Assembly: GCF_001424565.1 (NCBI RefSeq)
Contig: NZ_LMOL01000005.1
Location: forward strand, 466,575 to 530,574
Length of the DNA stretch: 64,000 nt
From: Arthrobacter sp. Leaf141
GTDB lineage: Bacteria; Actinomycetota; Actinomycetes; Actinomycetales; Micrococcaceae
Reading direction: 5' to 3'
Shown here one piece after another: positions 26,378 through 46,917 of this stretch. The notes beneath the pieces are model-generated. The model searched no databases, was not told the DNA's origin, and saw only the letters and a program-made list of their open reading frames with translations. Both the position numbers and the translations under genes were made by a program. How positions within the stretch are numbered: the first letter of the stretch is position 1; each line of letters starts with the position of its first letter.

Positions 26378-27463
26378 GTGTCTTCACATCCGATCCGTGT
26401 TGCAATCGTCGGCGTTGGCAACTGTGCCGCCTCGCTGGTCCAGGGCGTCCAGTACTACAAGGACGCCGATCCTGCGGCCACCATTCCCGGCCTGATGCAC
26501 GTTGAGTTTGGCCAGTACCACGTGGGCGACGTTGAGTTCGTTGCCGCGTTTGATGTTGATGGCAAGAAGGTCGGCGTTGACCTTGCGGATGCCATCCTGG
26601 CCAGCGAAAACAACACCATCAAGATCGCCGACGTGCCGCCCACAGGCGTCACGGTCCAGCGCGGCCACACCCTGGACGGCCTGGGCAAGTACTACCTCGA
26701 GACCATTGAACAGTCCACGGAAGAGCCCGTGGACGTGGTTCAGGCACTCAAGGACGCCAAGGTCGACGTGATGGTCTGCTACCTGCCCGTGGGATCCCAG
26801 GCCGCCGCCGAGTTCTATGCCCAGGCCGCCATCGATGCGGGCGTGGGGTTCGTCAACGCCCTGCCCGTCTTCATCGCCGGCACCAAGGAATGGGCGGACA
26901 AGTTCACCGCCGCCGGCGTGCCGATCGTGGGCGACGACATCAAGAGCCAGATCGGTGCCACCATCACGCACCGCGTCATGGCCAAGCTGTTCGAGGACCG
27001 CGGCGTCACCCTTGACCGCACCTACCAGCTGAACGTGGGCGGCAACATGGACTTCAAGAACATGCTGGAGCGTGACCGCCTGGAGTCCAAAAAGATCTCC
27101 AAAACCCAGGCCGTGACGTCCAACGTTCAGGCCGAACTCGCCGCCAAGGACGTCCACATCGGCCCGTCGGACTACGTCCAGTGGCTCGATGACCGCAAAT
27201 GGGCGTTTGTCCGGCTCGAGGGCCGCAACTTCGGCGACGCCCCCGTATCGCTGGAGTACAAGCTGGAGGTCTGGGATTCGCCCAACTCCGCCGGCGTGAT
27301 CATCGACGCCATCCGCGCGGCGAAGATCGGCCTGGACCGTGGTGTGGGCGGGCCGCTGCTCTCCGCATCGAGTTACTTCATGAAGTCGCCGCCGGAGCAG
27401 TTCAACGACGACCTCGCCCGCGAGAAGGTCGAAGCCTTCATCCGCGGCGACCTGGAGCGCTAA
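26378..27463 (+). CDS. ino1: myo-Inositol-1-phosphate synthase (actinobacterial type)
   Basis: 361-aa NAD-dependent enzyme making inositol-1-phosphate from glucose-6-phosphate, the precursor of phosphatidylinositol and mycothiol. The N-terminal Rossmann loop is [16 protein letters not shown], and [15 protein letters not shown] and [13 protein letters not shown] are family regions; length is close to the mycobacterial enzyme. GTG 26378 follows AAAGGAG. MshA, which uses inositol phosphate, is encoded 3 kb downstream on the other strand. Confidence 0.95.
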
Positions 27464-27479
27464 GCCCTACCCACCCTCC

Positions 27480-27542
27480 CGTTGCCCTATCACCTCTGGT
27501 CGCCAAACACCTTGTTTGGGGACCATAGGTGATAGGGCAACG
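27480..27542. repeat. Palindromic intergenic repeat, copy 1
   Basis: 30-base arms (27480-27509 and 27513-27542) with two mismatches and a CCT loop. The outer arm begins CGTTGCCCTATCACCT. It lies between convergent ino1 (stop 27463) and the DUF559-like gene (stop 27548), so it can terminate both. It shares its outer sequence with copies at 28516 and 38459. Confidence 0.9.
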
Positions 27543-27547
27543 TGCGT

Positions 27548-28465
27548 TCAGGCCTGGCGCAGCGCCGCCCGGATCTGGCCAACGGCGCCGCGGAAGTCCC
27601 GGGCAAGGTCGTCGGCGTTGAACTTGAAGTACCGCCAGCCGGCAGCATGGAAGGCTGCATCCCGCCGGTTGTCGCGGGACTGCTGTTCGCGGCTGAGGTG
27701 ATGGCCGCCGTCGTACTGGATCGCGATGCGGCGGGCCCGGTACCCGAGGTCGGCGGCCGGCGAGTAGGGATCGGCCGGATCGATCCGGACCTGAAGGCCG
27801 GGCTCGGGGAGCCCGGCGTCTGTCAGGGCCAGGCGCAGGAACGTCTCAGGGGCGGAGTCTGAACCGCAACGGACAAGTTCGACGGCGGTACGCGCCTTGA
27901 CGATGCCCTTGACCTTTGGGTGCCGGGAAGCGACCAGCCGCAGCTCCTGGACACTGGACCAGGCTTCCGTCCGCAGTTCGAGGCCGGGGCGGGGCGGGCG
28001 CACCAGCTGGTCGCCGACCGCCACCAGGTGCTCCAACGGCACGCACCTGGCCAGGTCCAGCCAGGTGCGTGCCGGGGTGGACATATGGATGCCCTCCCAG
28101 CACATGGTCTCGTCAGGGAAAGCAAGAACGGTGTGGCCCACCACCCCGGAGCGTCGGGCTGGCGGCAAGGCCTTGGGCTTACTCAGGTGCAGTTCGCGGC
28201 TGTCCTGGAGCCACGGCGGCAACCACAGGCCCAGCAGCGCGGCAGCCGTCAGATGGGATATCCAGGCGCCGGGCGTGGCCGCGGAGAGTGCCCGTGCCAC
28301 CCCCGGAAGGTCGAACTCCCAATCCGAGCGCTGGTAGAGCAGGCGCCCGGTGGATGTCAGGTCCGCTGCACGCAGCCGGCCCCGGGTCAGGCCCGCCGCC
28401 CGCGCCTCGTGGACGGTGAAAGGCGCGGCGGAGAGTCCTTTTGGGAGGGGCGAGGGCTGGTGCAT
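27548..28465 (-). CDS. DUF559/AbiEi-like protein with Vsr-type nuclease fold (predicted)
   Basis: 305-aa protein of unknown function. The N-terminal part (FTVHEARAAGLTRGRLRAAD) resembles the winged-helix start of AbiEi antitoxin-like proteins. The C-terminal part (PADLGYRARRIAIQYDGGHH, then AGWRYFKFNADDL) resembles the DUF559/Vsr-type PD-(D/E)xK nuclease fold. Such proteins are frequent, often strain-specific, in Micrococcaceae. It is bracketed exactly by two palindromic repeats (27480-27542 and 28516-28584). No partner toxin or methylase lies beside it. Base composition looks like its neighbours. The function is inferred from fold resemblance only. Confidence 0.65.
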   Translation of the reverse strand: MHQPSPLPKGLSAAPFTVHEARAAGLTRGRLRAADLTSTGRLLYQRSDWEFDLPGVARALSAATPGAWISHLTAAALLGLWLPPWLQDSRELHLSKPKALPPARRSGVVGHTVLAFPDETMCWEGIHMSTPARTWLDLARCVPLEHLVAVGDQLVRPPRPGLELRTEAWSSVQELRLVASRHPKVKGIVKARTAVELVRCGSDSAPETFLRLALTDAGLPEPGLQVRIDPADPYSPAADLGYRARRIAIQYDGGHHLSREQQSRDNRRDAAFHAAGWRYFKFNADDLARDFRGAVGQIRAALRQA

Positions 28466-28515
28466 GGCACCATTGTGGCGCGGAGCCAGGGTGGTCCGCT
28501 GAAGTTATCCACAGC

Positions 28516-28584
28516 CCCCGTTGCGCTATCAGTTGTGGTCCCTAAAGTCCCCTTTTGGGGACCCTAAGTGATAGCGCAACGGGG
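28516..28584. repeat. Palindromic intergenic repeat, copy 2
   Basis: 69 bases. The outer 16-base arms (28516-28531, CCCCGTTGCGCTATCA, and 28569-28584) are perfect; the inner part has diverged and forms its own hairpin GTCCCC-TTTT-GGGGAC (28547-28562). It lies downstream of fhs and upstream of the DUF559-like gene. It runs directly into a GGGGAGGGGAGGGG tract. Confidence 0.9.
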
Positions 28585-28598
28585 AGGGGAGGGGAGAG
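28581..28598 (+). other. G-rich tract attached to palindrome copy 2
   Basis: Three runs of four G separated by single A, then GAGG, starting within the right end of the palindrome. It is a possible weak G-quadruplex on the plus strand. Confidence 0.45.
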
Positions 28599-28608
28599 GC
28601 CGACGGTT

Positions 28609-30285
28609 TTAGGCGAGCCCCACCGGGTTTCCGGCGTCGTCCACGTCCATCCGCAGCGCTGCCGGTTCCGGCGGGAGGCCCGGCATGGTCATCACCGCGC
28701 CGGTCAGGGCCACGATGAAACCCGCACCGGTCTTGGGCAGCAGGTCGCGCACGTGGATGGTGAAGCCTTTGGGGGCACCCAGCCGGGTGGCGTCGTCGGT
28801 AAATGAATACTGGGTCTTGGCCATGCAGATTGGCAGGTTGCCCCACCCGTTCCGCTCGATGTCGGCGAGCCGCTTCAGGGCCGGCACCGAGAAGTCCACG
28901 CCGTCCGCCCCGTAGATCTCCTGCGCGATGGTCCGGATCTTCTCCTCCACAGGCATGTCCAGGGGGTACAGGTGCCGGAAGCTGGTGGGTTCCGTCAGGG
29001 CCTGTGCCACCAGGGCCGCCAGTTCATCGCCCCCGGCGCCGCCGCCGCCGTGTCCCCAAACGTCCGCGACGGCGGCCGGAACGCCTTCAGCGGCGCACCA
29101 GGCCAGGAGCCAGTCCAGTTCCTCCTGCGTGTCCGAGGAGAACCGGTTGATGGCGACCACCGGCGGGACGCCGAATTTTTCCACGTTCCGCACGTGCCGG
29201 CGGAGGTTGGCCACGCCGGCTTCCAGCGCCGCCAGGTCAGGGCGGGTCAGCTGGTCCCTGGCTACGCCGCCCTGCATCTTCAGGGCCCGGACCGTCGCCA
29301 CAACCACCACCGCGGACGGCGCAACCCCGCCCGTGCGGGCCTTGATGTCCATGTATTTCTCGGCCCCCAGGTCGGCGCCGAACCCCGCCTCGGTAACCAC
29401 AATGTCCGCCAGCCGCCGGGCCGTCTGGGTGGCGATCAGGGAATTGCAGCCATGCGCGATGTTGGCAAACGGGCCCCCGTGGACCAGCGCGGGCGTGCCG
29501 GCGATGGTCTGCACCAGGTTGGGCCGGATCGCGTCCTTGAGGAGCAGTGTCAGGACGCCCTGCACCTTAAGGTCGGCCACCGTGACGGGCCTGCGCGCGT
29601 AGGTGTAGCCGAACGTGATGCGGCCCAGGCGGTCCCGGAGGTCGGCCAGGTCCGTGGCCAGGCAGAACACAGCCATGACCTCGGAAGCCACGGTAATGTC
29701 GAAACCGTCCTGCCGCGGGACGCCCTGGGCGGGTCCACCCAGCCCGATGACCACCTCCCGCAACGCCCTGTCATTCATGTCCAGGACGCGCTTGAACGTC
29801 ATCCGCCGCGGGTCGATGTCCAGTTCGTTGCCCTGGTAGATGTGGTTGTCCACCAGGGCCATCAGGGCATTGTTGGCGCTGGTCACAGCGTGGAAGTCAC
29901 CGGTGAAATGCAGGTTGATCTCGTCCATGGGCAGCACCTGCGAATAGCCGCCGCCCGTTGCCCCGCCCTTCATGCCCAGGATGGGCCCGAGCGACGGTTC
30001 CCGCAACGCAATCATCACCTTGTGCCCGGCCCGGGCCAGCGAGTCCGCCAACCCCACCGTGGTGGTGGACTTGCCCTCGCCGGCAGGGGTGGGGGACATG
30101 GCCGACACCAGGACCACCTTCCCCGCAGGCCCGGGTGCGTCCAGCAGCGCCGGGTCGATCTTGGCCTTGTATCGTCCGTAGGGCTCCAGCGCCGCGGCGT
30201 TGATTCCAGCGGCTTCGGCAATCTCGGTGATGGGCCGGATGGCGGCGGCACGGGCTATCTGCAGATCAGTCGGGAAATCAGACAC
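28609..30285 (-). CDS. fhs: Formate--tetrahydrofolate ligase
   Basis: 558-aa ATP-dependent enzyme making 10-formyl-tetrahydrofolate from formate, feeding purine and formyl-Met synthesis. The ATP loop is [36 protein letters not shown] and [14 protein letters not shown] are family signatures. The GTG start at 30285 has a GGAAAGGA ribosome site. It follows mshA by 54 bases on the same strand, so the two may be cotranscribed. A palindromic repeat lies just beyond the stop. Confidence 0.97.
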
Positions 30286-30339
30286 CGTTGTCCTTTCCTT
30301 GGGTTGGCGCCACCGCAGTGGCGTTGACGACGGCGGCCG

Positions 30340-31605
30340 TCAGGAAGCGGGGATGGCGCGGACCAGGCGGGGCGCGGCTGAGTCGTCGGCAGCGGCGTGG
30401 TAACTATCCAGGGTGACCGCCGCCGTGCGCTGCCAGCCGGAACTCTGCGCGCGGATGGCGGCGGCCCGGCCCATGTCAGCCCGGGTGGCCGGATCGTCGT
30501 AGAGCGCTTCGAGCGCATCGGCCCAGTCAGCGGCATGATGCCCGTCCACCAGCAGGCCCGTCCGGCCGTGGAAGATGGCACGCGAGAGGCCGCCCACCCG
30601 GGTGGCCACCACGGGAGTGCCGCAGGCCTGGGCCTCCAGCGCCACCAGCCCGAAGGATTCGCTGAAGGACGGCATGGCCACCACGTCAGCCGCCCGGAAC
30701 CAGCCCGCCAGCTCCGGTGCCTTGACCGGCGGAAGCTGCGTGACGACGTCGTCCATTCCTGCCTCGGCAACCAGCCGCCGGAGGTTGAATTCCTTGTTTC
30801 CGCTCAGCGAGCCGAGGATGGTGAGCCGGAGGTCGATGTCCGGCCGGCGCTGGCGCAGCAGCGCGGCGGACTTCACCAGGACCTGGGGGCCTTTGAGGCG
30901 CTGGATGCGGCCGGCGAAAACCAGGTGGAACGTGTCCGGGCTGATGCCCCGTTCGGCGCGCGACCGGGTGCGGAACGCCGGCGTGAACGTGTTGAGGTCA
31001 ACGCCCGGGGGAGCGACGTCGATCCGCTCGAAGCTGGCGCCGTAATGAGAGACGAGCTCGCCGGCCTCGGCGCTGGTGTTGGCGATCAGCCTGGCCGCGC
31101 CATCCACAATGCGCTGCTCGCCCACTTCGCGCCGCCGCGGTTCGGGCTGTTCACCGGATTCCAGGAGCAGGTTTTTGACCTTGGCCATGGTGTGCATGGT
31201 GTGGACCAAGGGCACGTCCCATTGCCGGGACAGCTCCAGGCCGGCCAGTCCGGAGACCCAGTAGTGCGAGTGGATCACGTCGTAGCGCCCGTGCGGCTGG
31301 CGGCGGCGGATCTGCTCGATCTCCGCCACCATGGCGTTCACCAGGCCCGGAAGTTCCTCTTTCGGAACCTTCCGCGGCGGCCCGGCCATCACGTTGTGGA
31401 CGCAGACGCCGGGATCCGGATGTTCAACGGCCGGCTGGTTGGCGGCGGTGGCGCGGGTGAAGATCTCCACCTCGATCCCGGCTTCGGCCAGGGCTTCGGC
31501 CAGTTCGCGGACGTACACGTTCATTCCGCCGGCGTCGCCGGAGCCTGGCTGTTCCATCGGCGATGTGTGGAGGGAGAGCAAAGCAACCCTGCGGATCAGT
31601 GCCAC
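30340..31605 (-). CDS. mshA: D-inositol-3-phosphate glycosyltransferase (mycothiol)
   Basis: 421-aa GT4 enzyme joining GlcNAc from UDP-GlcNAc to inositol-3-phosphate, the first committed step of mycothiol synthesis. The N-terminus ALLSLHTSPMEQPGSGDAGG is diagnostic; HTMHTMAKVKN, PPGVDLNTF and the donor-binding ESFGLVALE are intact. GTG 31605 is preferred over the upstream frame start because AAGGAG lies six bases before it. Ino1 and GlmM/GlmS in this window supply both substrates. It lies downstream of the GH4 gene in the same direction. Confidence 0.96.
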   Translation of the reverse strand: MALIRRVALLSLHTSPMEQPGSGDAGGMNVYVRELAEALAEAGIEVEIFTRATAANQPAVEHPDPGVCVHNVMAGPPRKVPKEELPGLVNAMVAEIEQIRRRQPHGRYDVIHSHYWVSGLAGLELSRQWDVPLVHTMHTMAKVKNLLLESGEQPEPRRREVGEQRIVDGAARLIANTSAEAGELVSHYGASFERIDVAPPGVDLNTFTPAFRTRSRAERGISPDTFHLVFAGRIQRLKGPQVLVKSAALLRQRRPDIDLRLTILGSLSGNKEFNLRRLVAEAGMDDVVTQLPPVKAPELAGWFRAADVVAMPSFSESFGLVALEAQACGTPVVATRVGGLSRAIFHGRTGLLVDGHHAADWADALEALYDDPATRADMGRAAAIRAQSSGWQRTAAVTLDSYHAAADDSAAPRLVRAIPAS

Positions 31606-31680
31606 GGGATCTCCTTCCGGCCGCCGGCGCAAGTGCCGGGCGAGGCTGCAGTGCGCATTCGGTAAAACACTACTCCCAAC

Positions 31681-33138
31681 TTAACGCCCGCTGCCCCGCC
31701 ACATCTTCCCGAGGTCGGGGAAGGCCTGCTCGTACCCGGCCAGGAGCCTGGCCGCGAGGTCGGCGGAGGCCACCAGCGGATGATGCGCGAACGCGGCGAG
31801 GGCGGCTTCCCGGTCCCCGTCCGTCGCGGCCCGGACCGTGAACCGCTCCACGTCCTTGACCTCCCGGAGCAGCTTCAGGCGTGGTTCCGGTGGCGCCGCC
31901 TGGGGCAGCGGCACCGCACCTTGGGCGCTGACCGTGCAGGGGAGTTCGACGACGGCGTCCGCGGGCAAACCGGGAATGGCGGCTTCCGCGGGGGCCGGGT
32001 CAGCGGGGGCGGGGGTGGCCGGGTGGCCCAGCTGGTCGGGTTGGCCCACCCGGGACCGGGCTGTGCCGGACACGGGCGGCACCGTGTTGACCGTGTTCAG
32101 GATCAGCTGGGTGTCGCCACCGCCGGTCAGAGCGCGCATGGCGGCCAGCGCCACTTGCTCGTAGCCGCCACCGGCCAGGCCTTCTTCGTCCCGGCGCTCG
32201 CCGTCCGACCGGGCCTCAGCCAGGTAGCCTTCCTCCCGGGCGAGCCGGGCAGCCTCCCAGAGGCGGAACGCATCCGGCCCGGCGACAGCCAGTTGCGGGT
32301 ACAGGTCCTGCTGCTGCCGGTGGATGTCCTCGCCCCGGGTCCGCGCCCTTGCGGCGATGGCCAGGCGGGCGGCGTCGTGCCGGTAGTAGTAGTACAGGTA
32401 CTCGTTGGGAATGGCACCCAGGCCGGCCAGGAACGCCTGCGGGAACAGCCGGCCTTCCTCGAAGCTTTGCAAGGCTTCCCGGTCCTCGAGCAGGGCCGGG
32501 AGAACATCCGTTCCGCCGGGTGCCAGCCGGTACAGCCAGCCCAGATGGTTCAGCCCGTGGTAGCCCACCCCGGCCAGGCTTCCAGCCGCCAGTGGTGTAC
32601 CCGCAGCCCGTGCCGCCCGCAGCACCAGGCCGCCGGCCGAGTCGCAGATCCCGATGACCTTGTGGCCCAGCACCGGGCGCAGGGCTTCCGTGACCATGCC
32701 GGCCGGGTTGGTGAAGTTGATCAGCCACGCGGCCGGGCAGCGCTGCTTCATCAGCGCCGCCAGCTCCAGCATCCGCGGGATGGTGCGCAGGGCGTACGAG
32801 ATGCCGCCGGCGCCTGTGGTTTCCTGACCCAGCAGGCCCAGGCCTGCCGCCACCTTCTCGTCAAGGACCCGGCCGCTGGTCCCGCCCGGGCGGATGGCCG
32901 CGAAGACCATGTCCACACCATCCAGTGCCTCGGGCAGGCTGGTGCTGCAGCGGACGGCCAGCCGGGCACCCGGTCCGGGCGGCATACCGGCCAGCACTGC
33001 GGCGACGGCGTCGAGGCGGTGCGGATCGACGTCGTACAACACCAGGCTCGAGACCAGGCCGCCGTAGCCGCCGGACGTCAAGGCCCGGTAGATGAGGGGG
33101 ACGCGGAAACCCCCGCCGCCCACAATGAGTAGCCGCAT
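31681..33138 (-). CDS. GH4-family 6-phospho-beta-glucosidase-like enzyme
   Basis: 485-aa NAD- and metal-dependent glycosidase of family GH4. The N-terminal dinucleotide loop is VGGGGFRVPLIYRAL; NFTNPAGMVTEALR, the metal Cys in GICDSAGG and GYHGLNHLGW are present. The substrate is probably a 6-phospho-beta-glucoside, but GH4 specificity is varied. A Pro/Ala-rich insertion (about residues 375-400) is unusual. ATG 33138 follows TAGACT by seven bases (leaderless). It is divergent from a PfkB kinase, suggesting a shared sugar pathway. Confidence 0.85.
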   Translation of the reverse strand: MRLLIVGGGGFRVPLIYRALTSGGYGGLVSSLVLYDVDPHRLDAVAAVLAGMPPGPGARLAVRCSTSLPEALDGVDMVFAAIRPGGTSGRVLDEKVAAGLGLLGQETTGAGGISYALRTIPRMLELAALMKQRCPAAWLINFTNPAGMVTEALRPVLGHKVIGICDSAGGLVLRAARAAGTPLAAGSLAGVGYHGLNHLGWLYRLAPGGTDVLPALLEDREALQSFEEGRLFPQAFLAGLGAIPNEYLYYYYRHDAARLAIAARARTRGEDIHRQQQDLYPQLAVAGPDAFRLWEAARLAREEGYLAEARSDGERRDEEGLAGGGYEQVALAAMRALTGGGDTQLILNTVNTVPPVSGTARSRVGQPDQLGHPATPAPADPAPAEAAIPGLPADAVVELPCTVSAQGAVPLPQAAPPEPRLKLLREVKDVERFTVRAATDGDREAALAAFAHHPLVASADLAARLLAGYEQAFPDLGKMWRGSGR

Positions 33139-33145
33139 GGGTCCG

Positions 33146-33151
33146 AGTCTA
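33146..33151 (-). promoter_or_regulatory. -10 hexamer of the GH4 gene, leaderless arrangement
   Basis: TAGACT on the minus strand, seven bases before the ATG at 33138. It stands back to back with the PfkB gene promoter in a 70-base intergenic region. Confidence 0.55.
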
Positions 33152-33195
33152 GGCCTGCCGCCCGCGCGCCCCTATCGGTGGGAAGCGGCGTGGCG

Positions 33196-33201
33196 TATCG
33201 T
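33196..33201 (+). promoter_or_regulatory. -10 hexamer of the PfkB-family gene, leaderless arrangement
   Basis: TATCGT seven bases before the ATG at 33209. Confidence 0.5.
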
Positions 33202-33208
33202 GCCGGAC

Positions 33209-34300
33209 ATGGACGCGATCCCGGCACGCCTTTTCGACCCCCTGGGCGCCGTCCGCGCGCGGACCGGACCGGGGTTCGACCTGCTGCTCGCCGGCACAGT
33301 TTTCCAGGACATCATTTTCACCGGACTGCCCAGCGAACCCGAAGCAGGCACCGAAATCTGGAGCGAAGGGATGGGCAGCTGCCCGGGCGGCGTGGCCAAC
33401 CAGGCCATCGCAGCGGCCCGGCTGGGGCTCCGGACCGGGCTGGCGGCAGCGTTCGGTGACGACGGCTACGGCGACTTCAACTGGAAGATCCTCGCGGACC
33501 AGGAACAGGTGGACCTCAGCTTGTCCAGGCGGGTAAAGGGCTGGCACTCGCCGGTGACGGTATCCCTCTGCGTGCAGAAGGACCGTTCCCTGGTGACCCA
33601 CGGGCATCCGGCACCGGTGACTTCCTCGGAGTTGATCGGGGACCCGCCGCCGGCGCTCGCGGGCATCGCCGAGGTGGGCGTTGAGGTGGAACCGTGGGCC
33701 GTGGCCGCGCACCAGGCAGGCGTGAAGCTGTTCGGTGACACCGGCTGGGACCCCAGCGGTGAATGGGCGCCAATCCGGCTGGAGAACCTGAAGTACTTCC
33801 ACGGGTTCCTGCCCAACCAGCGCGAGGCCATGGCCCTGACCGGGAAGGACAACCCGTGGTCCGCCCTCTATGCGCTGGCCGACCGGGTGCCCGTCGCCGT
33901 TGTGACCCTCGGCCAGCAGGGAGCCATGGCGGTGGACTCCGAAACGGGGGAGGAGGAGTGGGTGCCCTCGCTGCCCGTCAAGGCACTGGACCCCACCGGC
34001 GCCGGCGACTGCTTCGATGCTGCGTTTATTGTGGGCAGCCTGGCGGGGTGGCCGTTGGGCAACCGGCTCCGGTTCGCCAACCTGTGCGCAGCCCTGTCGG
34101 TGCAGGAAGTGGGCGGCTCGCTGGCCGCGCCGGGCTGGGGTGACATTGCCGACTGGTGGAAACGCGCCAACGCCCGGCCGGAACGGCAGACCAGCCAGTG
34201 GCTGCGGCGCTTCGGTTTCCTGTCCGAGATCATCCAGGACGTCCCGCCCACGGCCCAGCGCCGGGCCTCAGCCACCATTGCGCACCTCTCGGACGCCTGA
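33209..34300 (+). CDS. PfkB-family carbohydrate kinase
   Basis: 363-aa ribokinase-like sugar kinase. The N-terminal GxG region reads GSCPGGVANQAIAAARLG, and the C-terminal active-site motif DPTGAGDCFDAAFIVG carries the catalytic Asp. The substrate is not evident. ATG 33209 is selected over a frame that extends upstream because a -10 box lies seven bases before it and the upstream part overlaps the GH4 gene. Divergent pairing with the GH4 gene suggests a role in the same sugar utilisation. Confidence 0.9.
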   Translation: MDAIPARLFDPLGAVRARTGPGFDLLLAGTVFQDIIFTGLPSEPEAGTEIWSEGMGSCPGGVANQAIAAARLGLRTGLAAAFGDDGYGDFNWKILADQEQVDLSLSRRVKGWHSPVTVSLCVQKDRSLVTHGHPAPVTSSELIGDPPPALAGIAEVGVEVEPWAVAAHQAGVKLFGDTGWDPSGEWAPIRLENLKYFHGFLPNQREAMALTGKDNPWSALYALADRVPVAVVTLGQQGAMAVDSETGEEEWVPSLPVKALDPTGAGDCFDAAFIVGSLAGWPLGNRLRFANLCAALSVQEVGGSLAAPGWGDIADWWKRANARPERQTSQWLRRFGFLSEIIQDVPPTAQRRASATIAHLSDA

Positions 34301-34343
34301 ACCCGCGGCAGGGCGGCGATTATCCGGCCGGTAGCGCCAGCAC

Positions 34344-34349
34344 TAGAAT
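34344..34349 (+). promoter_or_regulatory. -10 hexamer of alr, leaderless arrangement
   Basis: TAGAAT seven bases before the GTG at 34357; it drives the alr-tsaE-tsaB-rimI-tsaD operon. Confidence 0.6.
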
Positions 34350-34356
34350 CACTAGG

Positions 34357-35565
34357 GTGACTTACCCCGCAGCACCCGGCCCCACCAGCACTGACCCCGG
34401 ACAGGATCCCCGCAACGAGAGGTCAGCCGTCATTGACCTGGCCGCCGTCCGGCACAACGTCCGCCGGCTTGCCGCGGCAGCCTCGCCGGCCAAAGTGATG
34501 GCCGTGGTCAAAGCCGATGCCTACGGCCATGGCGCCGTCCCCGTGGCCCGGGCCGCACTCGAGGCCGGCGCCGCCTGGTTGGGGGTTGCCCATATCTCCG
34601 AGGCACTGTCCCTCCGCGCGGCGGGTATCGACGCCCCGCTCCTGGCCTGGCTGCACACCACGGAAAGCAACTTCGGCGCGGCCGTTGCCGCCGGCGTCGA
34701 CATCGGCTGCTCGGGCTGGGAACTGGACCGCATCGTCGCTGCCGCCCGCGAGCAGGAACGCCCCGCCCGGATCCACCTGAAAGTGGACACCGGCCTGGGC
34801 CGGAACGGCGCCACCACCGGCACCTGGGACACGCTGGTGGGCGAAGCCATGGAATACCAGGACCAGGGCCTGCTCCGCGTGGTGGGCATCTTTTCGCACC
34901 TCGCCGTGGCGGACGAGCCGGACCGGCCAGAGACGGACCAGCAGCTGGCCCTGTTCAAGGAAGTACTGGCCGTGGCGGAGGACGCCGGGGTGGATCCCGA
35001 GGTGCGCCACCTGGCCAACACCCCCGCCACGCTGTCCCGGCCCGACACCCATTTCGACCTGGTCCGGGTGGGCCTGGGCATCTACGGCCTGTCCCCGTTC
35101 GAGGACCTCACTGCCGCGGAACTCGGCCTGCGCCCGGCCATGACGCTGCGCACCGTGGTGTCGCAGTGCAAGCAGGTTCCGGCCGGGCAGGGCGTGTCCT
35201 ACGGCCTGAACTACCGCACTGCCGCCGACACAACGCTGGGCCTCATCCCGCTCGGCTATGCCGATGGTGTGCCGCGCGTGGCAACGGGCGGCCCGGTCCG
35301 GATTGCCGGCACCACCTACCCCGTGGTGGGGCGGATCGCCATGGACCAGATGGTCATCGACCTGGGTGGGGCCTCCGGGGCGGAGGCCGGCCTGTCCGGA
35401 GCCGAGGCGGTCCTGTTCGGCGACGGGGCCGACGGCGGTCCCACAGCTGACGACTGGGCCCGCGCCGCCGGGACCATCAACTACGAGATTGTCACCAGGA
35501 TCAGCCCGCGCGTCCCGCGCCGTTTTATTAATGAGCCCGATGATGGCGCGGAGGGCGCCGCGTGA
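34357..35565 (+). CDS. alr: Alanine racemase
   Basis: 402-aa PLP enzyme giving D-alanine for peptidoglycan. The PLP lysine is K52 in MAVVKADAYGHG. The second-half motifs GLGIYGLSPF, GVSYGLNYRT and LGYADGVPR are typical. The frame is open upstream to 34156, but GTG 34357 is chosen because of the -10 box seven bases before it. That still leaves about 24 residues before the conserved start (SAVIDLAAVRHN). The stop overlaps the tsaE start by four bases. Confidence 0.96.
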   Translation: MTYPAAPGPTSTDPGQDPRNERSAVIDLAAVRHNVRRLAAAASPAKVMAVVKADAYGHGAVPVARAALEAGAAWLGVAHISEALSLRAAGIDAPLLAWLHTTESNFGAAVAAGVDIGCSGWELDRIVAAAREQERPARIHLKVDTGLGRNGATTGTWDTLVGEAMEYQDQGLLRVVGIFSHLAVADEPDRPETDQQLALFKEVLAVAEDAGVDPEVRHLANTPATLSRPDTHFDLVRVGLGIYGLSPFEDLTAAELGLRPAMTLRTVVSQCKQVPAGQGVSYGLNYRTAADTTLGLIPLGYADGVPRVATGGPVRIAGTTYPVVGRIAMDQMVIDLGGASGAEAGLSGAEAVLFGDGADGGPTADDWARAAGTINYEIVTRISPRVPRRFINEPDDGAEGAA

Positions 35566-36200
35566 GCGGGTCCGGCCAGCCCGCCTGGGAGCTCACGGTC
35601 CAGGCGACGACGGCGGAGCTGACCCATGCGCTCGCGGCCAGGCTGGCGGTGGTCCTCGACGCCGGGGACCTGCTGGTGCTCTCCGGCGAGCTGGGTGCCG
35701 GCAAAACCACGTTCACGCAGGGCCTGGCCGAGGGTCTGGGGGTCCGGGCCGGCGTCATTTCGCCCACCTTTGTGCTGGTCCGCATCCATCCCAACCTCGC
35801 CGACGGTCCCCGGCCCGGGGGACCGGACCTGGTCCACGTGGATGCTTACCGGCTCGGGTCGGCCGCGGAGATTGATGATATCGACCTGGAGAACACGCTG
35901 GATTCCGCCGTCACTGTGGTGGAGTGGGGCCGTGACCGGGTGGAGCACCTGAGCAACAGCCGGCTCGAGATCGACCTGCACCGGGCCATCGGCCTGGCCG
36001 GCGCTGCCACCGCTGGAGCGGCCGCCGGTTTACCGGCCCAGGAGACCCCAACGGAGCAGGGCGCCGGCTTCCTGGACTTTGATACCGACGAAACAGACGA
36101 ACCCCGCACCATTGTGCTGCGGGGGTACGGTCCGCGCTGGCCGGCTGCCCCGGACCTTGCCTTTCCCGAAGGAGATCCGCATGCTGATCCTCGCCATTGA
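35562..36200 (+). CDS. tsaE: tRNA t6A biosynthesis ATPase TsaE
   Basis: 212-aa ATPase that works with TsaB and TsaD to put threonylcarbamoyl on A37 of ANN-decoding tRNAs. The P-loop GELGAGKTT is at about residues 42-50, with ISPTFVLVRIH and HVDAYRLG. The C-terminal 70 residues are a low-complexity extension beyond the E. coli protein (about 150 aa). The GTG start overlaps the alr stop (GTGA); the 3' end overlaps tsaB by 20 bases. Confidence 0.95.
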   Translation: MSGSGQPAWELTVQATTAELTHALAARLAVVLDAGDLLVLSGELGAGKTTFTQGLAEGLGVRAGVISPTFVLVRIHPNLADGPRPGGPDLVHVDAYRLGSAAEIDDIDLENTLDSAVTVVEWGRDRVEHLSNSRLEIDLHRAIGLAGAATAGAAAGLPAQETPTEQGAGFLDFDTDETDEPRTIVLRGYGPRWPAAPDLAFPEGDPHADPRH

Positions 36201-36852
36201 CACCTCCGCCGTGGCCAGCGCCGCCCTGGTGTCGGATGACGCGCTCGAGGGCATGGTGGCCGGTTTCGCCACCGAGGACACCCGCAGCCACGCCGAAGTG
36301 CTGGCCCCGGGCATCCAGGACATGCTGGCCACTGCCGGTGTTGCGGGAACGGACATCGATGCCCTGGTGGTGGGTGTGGGCCCCGGGCCGTTCACGGGCC
36401 TGCGCTCCGGCATCGCCACGGCCCGCACCCTGGCCTACGTCTGGGGCAAGCCGCTGCACGGACTCATGAGCCTGGACGCGGTGGCCCTGGAAGTGGCGGA
36501 GTCCACCGCAGCCGTTCCGGAATTCCTGGTGGCCACCGACGCCCGGCGTAAAGAGGTGTACTGGGCCCGGTACACCCTGGCACCCGGGCAGCTGCCCGAA
36601 CTGGTGGACGGTCCGCACGTCGGTTTCGCTGCTGACCTTCCGGACCTGCCGGCCTTTGGCGCAGGCGCCGGGCTGTACGCCGATGTGCTCCGCGCTGACC
36701 CGGCCTTCGTCCGGGAGCAGCCCGATGCCCTGTACCTGGGCCAGTTTGCGCTGGCCCGGCTCGCGTCCGGCGGAACCCTGCCTGACTCCACCCCCCTGTA
36801 CCTGCGCGAATCCGACGCACAGGTACCCGGACCCCGCAAGCGTGCCCTGTGA
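36181..36852 (+). CDS. tsaB: tRNA t6A biosynthesis scaffold protein TsaB
   Basis: 223-aa ASKHA-fold partner of TsaD. The start MLILAIDTSAVASAA and GVGPGPFTGLRSGIATARTL are diagnostic. ATG 36181 follows GAAGGAG and gives the family N-terminus; the frame runs upstream inside tsaE. The stop overlaps the rimI start by four bases. Confidence 0.96.
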   Translation: MLILAIDTSAVASAALVSDDALEGMVAGFATEDTRSHAEVLAPGIQDMLATAGVAGTDIDALVVGVGPGPFTGLRSGIATARTLAYVWGKPLHGLMSLDAVALEVAESTAAVPEFLVATDARRKEVYWARYTLAPGQLPELVDGPHVGFAADLPDLPAFGAGAGLYADVLRADPAFVREQPDALYLGQFALARLASGGTLPDSTPLYLRESDAQVPGPRKRAL

Positions 36853-37355
36853 CCGCCGACGGACCCGCCCGCCTCGAGGGCATCACCCTCCGGCCCATGA
36901 CCCTTGACGACGTCGCCGCCGTCAACGCGCTGGAGCAGCGGCTTTTCCCGGTGGACGCCTGGCCGCTGCACATGTTCCTTTCCGAACTGTCCCAGCCGGA
37001 CACCCGGCACTACCTGGTGGCGGAGGACGCTGCCGGGATCGTGGGCTACGCCGGCCTGATGTGCATTGAGCCCATCGCGGACGTCCAGACCATCGCCGTC
37101 TTGCCCGAACAGGAAGGCCGCGGCATCGGCAGTACCCTCCTGACCCTCCTGATCGACGAAGCCCGGGCGCGGCGGGCAGCCGACGTGCTCCTGGAGGTCA
37201 GGGCGGACAATCCCCGGGCGCAGGCACTGTACGTCCGTTTCGGCTTCGAACAGATCCATATCCGACAGCGCTATTACCGCGACGGCGTCGACGCCCTCAT
37301 CATGAGGCTGCAGCTCGACGGCGGCAGCGGAACCACGGAAGCAGGCCAGCCATGA
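36849..37355 (+). CDS. rimI: Ribosomal protein S18-alanine N-acetyltransferase (RimI-like)
   Basis: 168-aa GNAT acetyltransferase. The acetyl-CoA loop reads [16 protein letters not shown], and [17 protein letters not shown] ends the fold. In this conserved operon position it is usually annotated RimI, which acetylates the N-terminus of S18; other protein N-termini are possible. GTG 36849 overlaps the tsaB stop and ATGA at 37352 couples it to tsaD. Confidence 0.88.
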
Positions 37356-38443
37356 ACCGGACACAGCCACTGGTGCTGGGGATCGAATCCTCCTGCGACG
37401 AAACGGGGGTTGGCGTCGTGCGGGGGACCACCCTGCTGACCAACACCGTCTCCTCGTCCATGGACGAGCACGTCCGGTTCGGCGGTGTTATTCCCGAAAT
37501 TGCGTCCCGGGCGCACCTGGACGCCTTCATCCCCACCCTGGACGCGGCATTGTCCGACGCCGGTGTGCGGCTGGACGAGGTGGATGCCATCGCCGTCACC
37601 GCCGGGCCTGGGCTGGCAGGTGCCCTGATGGTGGGCGTGTGCGCCGCAAAGGCCCTGGCCGTTGCCACCGGCAAGCCCCTTTACGCGATCAACCACCTGG
37701 TGGCACACGTGGGGGTGGGGCTCCTGGCGCCGGACGGCGACGGGAGCGCCCCGGAACTGCCGGCCAACCTTGGCGCGCTGCTGGTTTCCGGCGGACATAC
37801 CGAAATCCTGAAGATCAACAACATCACCGATGACGTGGTCCTCCTGGGCTCCACCATCGACGACGCCGCCGGGGAAGCATACGACAAAGTGGCCCGCATC
37901 CTGGGGCTGGGGTACCCGGGCGGGCCGGCGATCGACGCCGTGGCCCGGACCGGCAACCGTGCCGCCATCAGGTTTCCCCGTGGCCTGAGCCAGCCTAAAT
38001 ACATGGGAACCGCCGAAGAGCCCGGCAAGCACCGCTACGACTGGTCCTTCAGCGGGCTTAAGACAGCAGTGGCCCGCTGCGTGGAGCAGTTCGAGGCTCG
38101 CGGCGAGGAGGTGCCGGTGGCGGACATCGCCGCAGCCTTCCAGGAGGCGGTGGTGGACGTGGTGTCCGCCAAGGCGGTCCTGGCCTGCCGGGAGCACGGG
38201 ATCAAGGACGTGCTGCTGGGCGGCGGCGTCGCTGCCAACTCCCGGCTTCGCGAACTGACGGGCCAGCGCTGCACGTCCGCCGGGATCCGGCTGCACGTGC
38301 CGCCGCTGGGGCTGTGCACCGACAACGGGGCCATGGTGGCTGCCCTGGGAGCGCAGCTGGTGATGGCCGGCAAGGAGCCCAGTGGGATCGCCTTCGCCCC
38401 GGACTCCTCCCTCCCGGTCACAGCGGTCTCACTCCCGGCCTGA
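37352..38443 (+). CDS. tsaD: tRNA N6-adenosine threonylcarbamoyltransferase TsaD
   Basis: 363-aa catalytic subunit of the t6A complex. [15 protein letters not shown] opens the ASKHA fold; [12 protein letters not shown] carries the metal histidines; [10 protein letters not shown] and [14 protein letters not shown] are typical. It is the last gene of the alr-tsaE-tsaB-rimI-tsaD operon and is followed 16 bases later by the perfect palindrome at 38459. Confidence 0.97.
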
Positions 38444-38458
38444 CCCCCCGCCTGAAGC

Positions 38459-38527
38459 CCCCGTTGCGCTATCACTTATGGTCCCCAAACCACCGGTTTG
38501 GGGACCATAAGTGATAGCGCAACGGGG
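38459..38527. repeat. Palindromic intergenic repeat, copy 3 (perfect 33-bp arms)
   Basis: Arms 38459-38491 and 38495-38527 are exact complements over 33 bases with an ACC loop; the arm begins CCCCGTTGCGCTATCACTTA. It lies between convergent tsaD (stop 38443) and the GCS2-type ligase (stop 38587) and can serve as terminator for both. It is the best-preserved of three related copies. Confidence 0.95.
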
Positions 38528-46693: not shown

Positions 46694-46734
46694 CGCTCAA
46701 ATGTACAGCCACGCTGTCCGCCCATGACGAAATG

Positions 46735-46761
46735 CTGGCACTCACCTTGACCGAGTGCTAA
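46735..46761 (+). promoter_or_regulatory. CIRCE operator, upstream copy
   Basis: CTGGCACTC-N9-GAGTGCTAA, matching the HrcA operator consensus TTAGCACTC-N9-GAGTGCTAA except at two bases of the left arm. It covers the -35 box of the groE promoter. Confidence 0.85.
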
Positions 46762-46775
46762 CCCTTACATAGAGT
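46747..46775 (+). promoter_or_regulatory. groESL promoter
   Basis: TTGACC at 46747-46752 and TAGAGT at 46770-46775 with a 17-base spacer. The two CIRCE elements lie over the -35 box and just after the -10 box, a layout suited to HrcA repression. Confidence 0.8.
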
Positions 46776-46780
46776 CTCTA

Positions 46781-46807
46781 TTAGCACTCTCCCTAGGAGG
46801 GTGCTAA
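46781..46807 (+). promoter_or_regulatory. CIRCE operator, downstream copy
   Basis: TTAGCACTC-N9-GGGTGCTAA, one base away from the HrcA consensus. It is six bases after the -10 box and so at or just past the transcription start. Confidence 0.9.
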
Positions 46808-46917
46808 CACATGAAGAGCTGCCAGCCAGGCTGCTGCCGGCACCGCGACGACGGTTTGCCAGCCAGGCGGGAGAGCTTTCCAGTCCACAAATTTGCTGAC
46901 GTAAAGGAGAGGTCCGA

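Follow-up and report, generated by a model that had tools for sequence, protein, structure and literature searches.

The 64,000-nucleotide stretch of Arthrobacter sp. Leaf141 DNA analysed here (contig NZ_LMOL01000005.1, positions 466,575 to 530,574; hereafter the window) carries three long palindromes, copies 1 to 3, and between the first two of them lies a nuclease-like gene of the DUF559 family. A first-pass annotation had described the palindromes and overlooked this gene, which we regard as the main point. We think it probable that the palindromes are the flanking ends and the scattered copies of a repeat family tied to the DUF559 gene, whose protein is predicted to bind, and likely to cut, a palindrome of about 61-67 bp, which would allow palindrome and gene to spread or persist. 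A wider proposal is advanced only tentatively: the AbiEi-DUF559 proteins of this order may form an unrecognised and widespread class of selfish elements, palindrome-homing nucleases that each multiply their own family of about 45-70 bp. They would be an independent analogue, on a homing-endonuclease fold, of the repetitive extragenic palindromic (REP) sequences with their REP-associated tyrosine transposases (RAYTs), with at least three families in this genome. Among the Creative Commons-licensed literature, no paper linking DUF559 genes to palindromes was found by title or abstract.

Re-reading of the window confirmed the three palindromes at the places, and with the arms, loop and mismatches, that had been claimed for them. 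The core of each runs from GTTGC to GCAAC and is exactly 61 bp long. Copy 3 has perfect arms of 33 bases around a loop of 3 bases, copy 1 has 2 mismatches in its arms, and copy 2 keeps perfect outer arms of 16 bases around a diverged centre. The RNA fold energies of copies 1, 2 and 3 are -51.1, -48.4 and -63.9 kcal/mol (z = -11.3, -11.5 and -15.2), and the three palindromes are far beyond chance. All three had been placed at gene 3' ends; this holds for copies 1 and 3, which lie between convergent genes (tsaD and a GCS2-family gene in the case of copy 3), while copy 2 lies between the 3' end of the formate-tetrahydrofolate ligase gene and the start of the DUF559 gene. A scan for terminators that requires a T tract included none of the three among its calls. 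A scan of the window against Rfam 15 at the gathering score gave 0 matches, and a named RNA family was rejected on that result.

The palindromes are not just three. The exact 12-base core GTTGCSCTATCA occurs 37 times in the 4.36 Mb genome (45 contigs) and its reversed control 0 times. A search with a shorter core and 1 mismatch pointed to 24 regions, 23 of which held 24 elements in all (L054 held none); since the reversed control of this search gave equally many matches, single matches were not trusted. Of these elements 22 are 61 bp and 2 are 60 bp long, with conserved outer arms and a variable centre. The suggestion that pairing of the arms is maintained was borne out over the 24 copies, where 88.4% of the cells are paired, compared with 36.0-40.9% after sliding by 1-3 columns. 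Cells changed on both sides number 33 against a shuffled mean of 18.6, and 0 of 500 shuffles were as high; the signal is weaker when whole pairs altered in both arms are counted (10, with 7.7 in the shuffles, 55 of 500 as high). The expectation of a dispersed intergenic family was thus upheld in this genome, and more copies are found in its relatives. As a side observation, contig C5, which makes up 22% of the genome, holds 13 of the 24 copies, none of them beyond the first 615 kb (binomial p 6e-4).

When up to 2 mismatches were allowed, 40 of the 149 genomes scanned, the genome under study included, contained the 61-bp pattern, and none contained its reversed control. All 40 are among the 91 genomes of the same genus, and 0 of the 58 genomes from other families of the order contain it. 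A scan of named genomes returned at least 106 stretches; among the 80 listed, 79 are from Arthrobacter or Pseudarthrobacter and 1 is from a Micrococcaceae metagenome-assembled genome. The 138 distinct copies collected are mostly 61 bp long (115 copies), with 18 of 60 bp and 5 of 59, 62 or 63 bp. Their borders are alike: each of the three bases on the left is C in 89-108 copies, and each of the three on the right is G in 84-110.

The DUF559 gene of the window and 22 homologues at 68-75% identity, drawn from 101 genomes of the genus, are referred to here as type A; the remaining full-length DUF559 homologues in these genomes reach at most 59% identity. All 23 type A genes lie between two copies of the 61-bp palindrome, which in most cases are about 1040 bp apart; the palindrome is present at 0 of the 7 next-best DUF559 loci. 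The repeat occurs in 20/20 scored genomes with a type A gene (2-23 copies, median 10) versus 20/71 that lack a complete gene of this type (Fisher p 2e-9, Mann-Whitney p 9e-10, both uncorrected for phylogeny). The latter 20 include G089, in which the type A gene has decayed but is still enclosed by two palindromes, and G038, in which a 3' fragment of the gene stands beside one palindrome and the other side is cut off. At locus L075 (genome G081) the type A gene has one internal stop and the palindromes are kept on both sides. The flanking copies of the genome under study also resemble its dispersed copies: the left one is on average the closest to them of all 46 flanking copies (2.89 mismatches per 25-nucleotide half-site), and the right one, at 3.32 mismatches, is surpassed by 3 copies of other genomes.

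Most type A units lie between the genes for myo-inositol-1-phosphate synthase (InosPS) and formate-tetrahydrofolate ligase (FTHFS). In G086 and G078 the unit, with both of its palindromes, occupies a second genomic site between flgE and flbD of the flagellar operon. In a tree of 22 of the 23 type A genes (one with a stop was left out), the G078 and G086 genes form one clade with a support of 0.994, nested among genes from the usual locus. This is best read as a single relocation of the unit together with its palindromes. The gap between flgE and flbD is 122 nucleotides and without the unit in G010, and it holds an apparent half palindrome in G024. In six further genomes (L137, L139, L140, L143, L144 and L152) it spans about 1.6-1.9 kb, with at least three kinds of content judged by its ends; L137 and L144 are alike, with a palindrome beside flgE, and so are L139 and L140. 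This gap is an insertion hot spot.

A confident structural model of the type A protein has two parts, a DNA-binding part like AbiEi (about residues 4-199) and a nuclease domain like those of Vsr and I-Bth0305I (residues 204-305). The match of the N-terminal part to AbiEi was obtained by both predicted fold and profile, and the closest solved catalytic domain to the modelled nuclease domain is that of the homing endonuclease I-Bth0305I. Eight residues, including E207, D239 and H256, are invariant in 60 homologues, and D265 is invariant in 30. No gene for an AbiEii nucleotidyltransferase toxin stands beside the unit in the window, where the neighbours are InosPS and FTHFS, and the same neighbours are found at most type A loci.

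Comparison of DUF559 genes from flank to flank revealed matching repeats, of other sequences, in other DUF559 groups and genera. A first scan of the flanks of a second group (type B) had found stems mostly on the 3' side of the gene; since the flank comparison then found inverted arrays and palindromes around other DUF559 genes, that scan was too narrow. We surveyed 69 DUF559 loci of the order (the 29 best per genome and 40 further by rank; one at a contig end and most partial rows were left out), and 26 of them, from 10 genera and 7 families, have strong, mutually matching palindromes on both sides. Of the other 43, 17 have flanks that match but no pair of strong palindromes, with inverted tandem arrays at some of them, 5 have palindromes on both sides below the match threshold, and 21 have nothing. 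Among a first set of controls, 196 random windows taken from Arthrobacter loci, 0 passed the survey test. These were judged too easy, so 121 open reading frames of 500-1600 bp were added; they came from 20 pieces, each 20 kb long and cut at the same fixed position (19 DUF559-bearing genomes of the order and the genome under study). None of them passed; 1 had matching flanks and 3 had palindromes on both sides. The difference between 26/69 and 0/121 is significant (Fisher p 1e-13), and in other genera, too, many DUF559 genes lie between palindromes of their own.

Of the other DUF559 genes in the Leaf141 genome two were surveyed, and both have families of this kind. Half-sites of the palindrome flanking the gene at C7:12476-13393 occur at 36 places, 28 of them with both halves, and those of the gene at C19:79127-80029 at 9 places, 6 with both halves (flanking sites included, up to 3 mismatches, reversed controls 0). 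For the second palindrome family of this genome (family 2), 23 copies were read, and they form a bounded unit of 66 bp, CCCAACT..AGTTGGG. The left border is identical in 23/23, with likeness falling off from the adjoining base on; 18 copies have a right border that can be read, and in 16 it is intact. In G173, from another taxonomic family, the palindrome beside its DUF559 gene has 16 sites, counting those that flank the gene, and it was found in none of three congeners and two other genomes. It is likely that each DUF559 enzyme recognises a DNA repeat of its own, which it would spread. Beyond the borders of both type A and family 2 copies, the left side is C-rich and the right side G-rich over about 10-15 bases; these flanks may reflect a target preference or an older, decayed stem. 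Elsewhere, inverted tandem half-sites (CTCTCTCACTTA- or CTCTATCAC-like) flank other DUF559 genes (L094, L264) or a gene-free InosPS-FTHFS locus (L110, L120, L129). The tandem half-site resembles the half-site of the type A palindrome, and the arrays outlast loss of the gene. The features of the window are listed in Table 1.

Table 1. Palindromes, DUF559 gene and neighbouring genes in the window
Feature	Position	Strand	Borders	Remarks
Palindrome copy 1	27478..27544 (61-bp core 27481-27541)		CCC left, GTG right	Left end of DUF559 unit
Palindrome copy 2	28517..28583 (61-bp core 28520-28580)		CCC/GGG	Right end of DUF559 unit
Palindrome copy 3	38460..38526 (61-bp core 38463-38523)		CCC/GGG	Dispersed, without gene
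Type A DUF559 gene	27548..28465	-		305 amino acids; PF04480, E 1e-5
InosPS (left neighbour)	26378..27463	+		Pfam; present at 21/23 type A loci
FTHFS (right neighbour)	28609..30285	-		Pfam; at 20/23 type A loci (L077 ends before it)

The modelled domains suggest how such a unit could work. Each palindrome half would be recognised by an AbiEi-like part, with two subunits covering the whole 61-67 bp as a dimer. The nuclease would then cut the palindrome or a hairpin extruded from it, and repair of the cut or hairpin would duplicate the palindrome, sometimes together with the gene. Dimeric binding, cleavage and copying by repair are inferred steps. The scattered copies would be non-autonomous members that sit beside gene ends and do little harm, and palindrome and gene would spread or persist much as has been proposed for RAYT enzymes with REPs.

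Homing endonucleases target a single site in a host gene. The EDxHD homing endonucleases, to which I-Bth0305I belongs, share the predicted fold of the catalytic domain; here, however, the domain comes fused with an AbiEi-like part, and the protein is predicted to target a repeated palindrome found at either end of its gene. For I-Bth0305I, binding as a dimer to a target of nearly 60 bp has been reported (PMC3943268), and one DUF559 gene has been placed in the EDxHD family (PMC9403480). The type IV antitoxins of the AbiEi type resemble the N-terminal part in predicted fold and profile, and AbiEi-type proteins bind DNA at inverted repeats (PMC7319586). In contrast to them, the protein described here is joined to a nuclease domain and lacks an adjacent toxin gene in the window.

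The first-pass annotation had proposed a REP-type element, and the layout agrees with this. As described for REP-RAYT systems, or REPtrons (PMC2817692, PMC3733652), one gene has a copy of a palindrome at each end, further copies are dispersed through intergenic regions, and each gene has a palindrome of its own; the presence of the gene and of its cognate repeat are also correlated there (PMC2817692). The resemblance does not extend to the enzyme or the repeat. RAYTs are described as tyrosine enzymes of the IS200/IS605 type with an HUH motif, whereas a PD-(D/E)XK/Vsr-like nuclease (PF04480) is predicted here, and REPs are given as short sequences of 20-40 bp with a GTAG or CGTC tag (PMC3733652), whereas the present palindromes measure 61-67 bp, have CCC/GGG borders and are almost completely symmetrical. 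The unit was therefore called REPtron-like for its layout and, with the RAYT, the tag and the short size all absent, was not assigned to the REP-RAYT systems. We infer a REPtron-like unit built on an unrelated nuclease. The TIRtrons (PMC3733652) are similar in that their enzyme genes are flanked by repeats forming small dispersed families, but their enzymes are tyrosine transposases of an unrelated fold.

Several observations weigh against a mobile unit of this kind. The nuclease fold rests on structure prediction, and Foldseek alone gave no match below E 0.001. In the survey, 43 of the 69 loci fell below the flanking thresholds, the 21 without any sign among them, and 11 of the 26 positive loci are from the same genus. 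Because 21 of the 23 type A units are at one locus, few independent events are represented, and 20 of the 71 genomes without a full type A gene keep copies nonetheless. Target-site duplications were not detected: the 138 type A copies show no excess of direct repeats of 3-10 bp at offsets 0-12, and among the 23 family 2 copies no repeat of 4-11 bp was present in three or more. The insertions could be old, with the duplications lost since. Between G006 and G029, the closest type A pair (93% nucleotide identity), 15/15 listed G006 copies have a collinear counterpart in G029, and one further copy that had appeared to be G029-only is present in G006 too; recent movement between these genomes was dropped as a candidate, the copies being common to both. 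At one of these sites the palindrome is also found in G026 and G011 and is absent in G017, where the gap is too diverged for its borders to be read. Moreover, no clean empty site was found between InosPS and FTHFS in the five gene-free loci read. Inverted half-site arrays occupy the gene-free loci of G069, G040 and G013, and the G078 gap (L115, about 1168-1235) contains a lone palindrome of another family (CAACGCGGGGTCACTTA..). The gene-free locus of G086 retains one type A palindrome and about 7 bp resembling the unit side of G000, and is thus not an exact excision.

Other explanations were weighed. One is a caretaker role, in which the DUF559 nuclease would resolve or repair hairpins, cruciforms or mismatches at the palindromes for the host and their spread had another cause. 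This is unlikely in our judgement, because 20 genomes retain palindromes without such a gene, and the family-specific pairing of gene and palindrome and the flanking on two sides fit a selfish unit better.

The sites stably common to G006 and G029 and the very stable folds would also suit hairpins that are useful to the host at gene ends, as bidirectional terminators or stabilisers of mRNA, with the DUF559 gene between two of them by an accident of descent. The settings of the 24 copies, taken from a simple GC-frame gene call, point the same way in part: 9 are between convergent genes and 10 between tandem genes, while 2 are between divergent genes, 2 are called inside an open reading frame (perhaps a miscall) and 1 is undecided. 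However, the terminator scan called none of the three palindromes in the window, and this explanation accounts neither for the flanking at 23/23 loci, nor for the second site with both palindromes, nor for three DUF559 genes with different families in one genome. We consider it improbable.

A regulatory role is equally doubtful. The AbiEi-like part could repress its own gene from the flanking copies, with the scattered copies serving as a regulon or as decoys and the nuclease being secondary. The AbiEi-like fold and profile match agree with such an operator, and AbiEi antitoxins are reported to autoregulate by binding inverted repeats (PMC7319586). One of the two flanking copies is nevertheless downstream of the gene, the scattered copies favour gene 3' ends (just the two divergent settings among the 24), and the nuclease core has invariant acidic and His residues. 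A classical family of miniature inverted-repeat transposable elements (MITEs) mobilised by a conventional DDE transposase encoded at another place in the genome, the other type that the first-pass annotation had named, is very improbable: the elements are short, dispersed inverted repeats and the borders of family 2 are sharp, but no target-site duplication was found in either family, the arms fill nearly the whole element, and the gene between the copies is a DUF559 gene.

The preferred reading, a palindrome family tied to its own DUF559 enzyme, has consequences beyond this locus. DUF559 genes of this type are common (101/198 sampled genomes of the order) and mostly lack an assigned role, and the finding that many of them are bounded by copies of a dispersed palindrome of their own offers a concrete function that can be tested. 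If the reading is true, the pairing of bacterial palindromic repeats with an enzyme of their own evolved more than once, and on nuclease folds that are unrelated. Target recognition would then be directly readable, since two instances of the predicted target stand beside each gene, with several to tens more elsewhere in the genome.

Apart from this family, the window contains an inverted repeat at 46733-46809 with the halves GAGTGCTAA and TTAGCACTC, which resembles a CIRCE (HrcA) operator.

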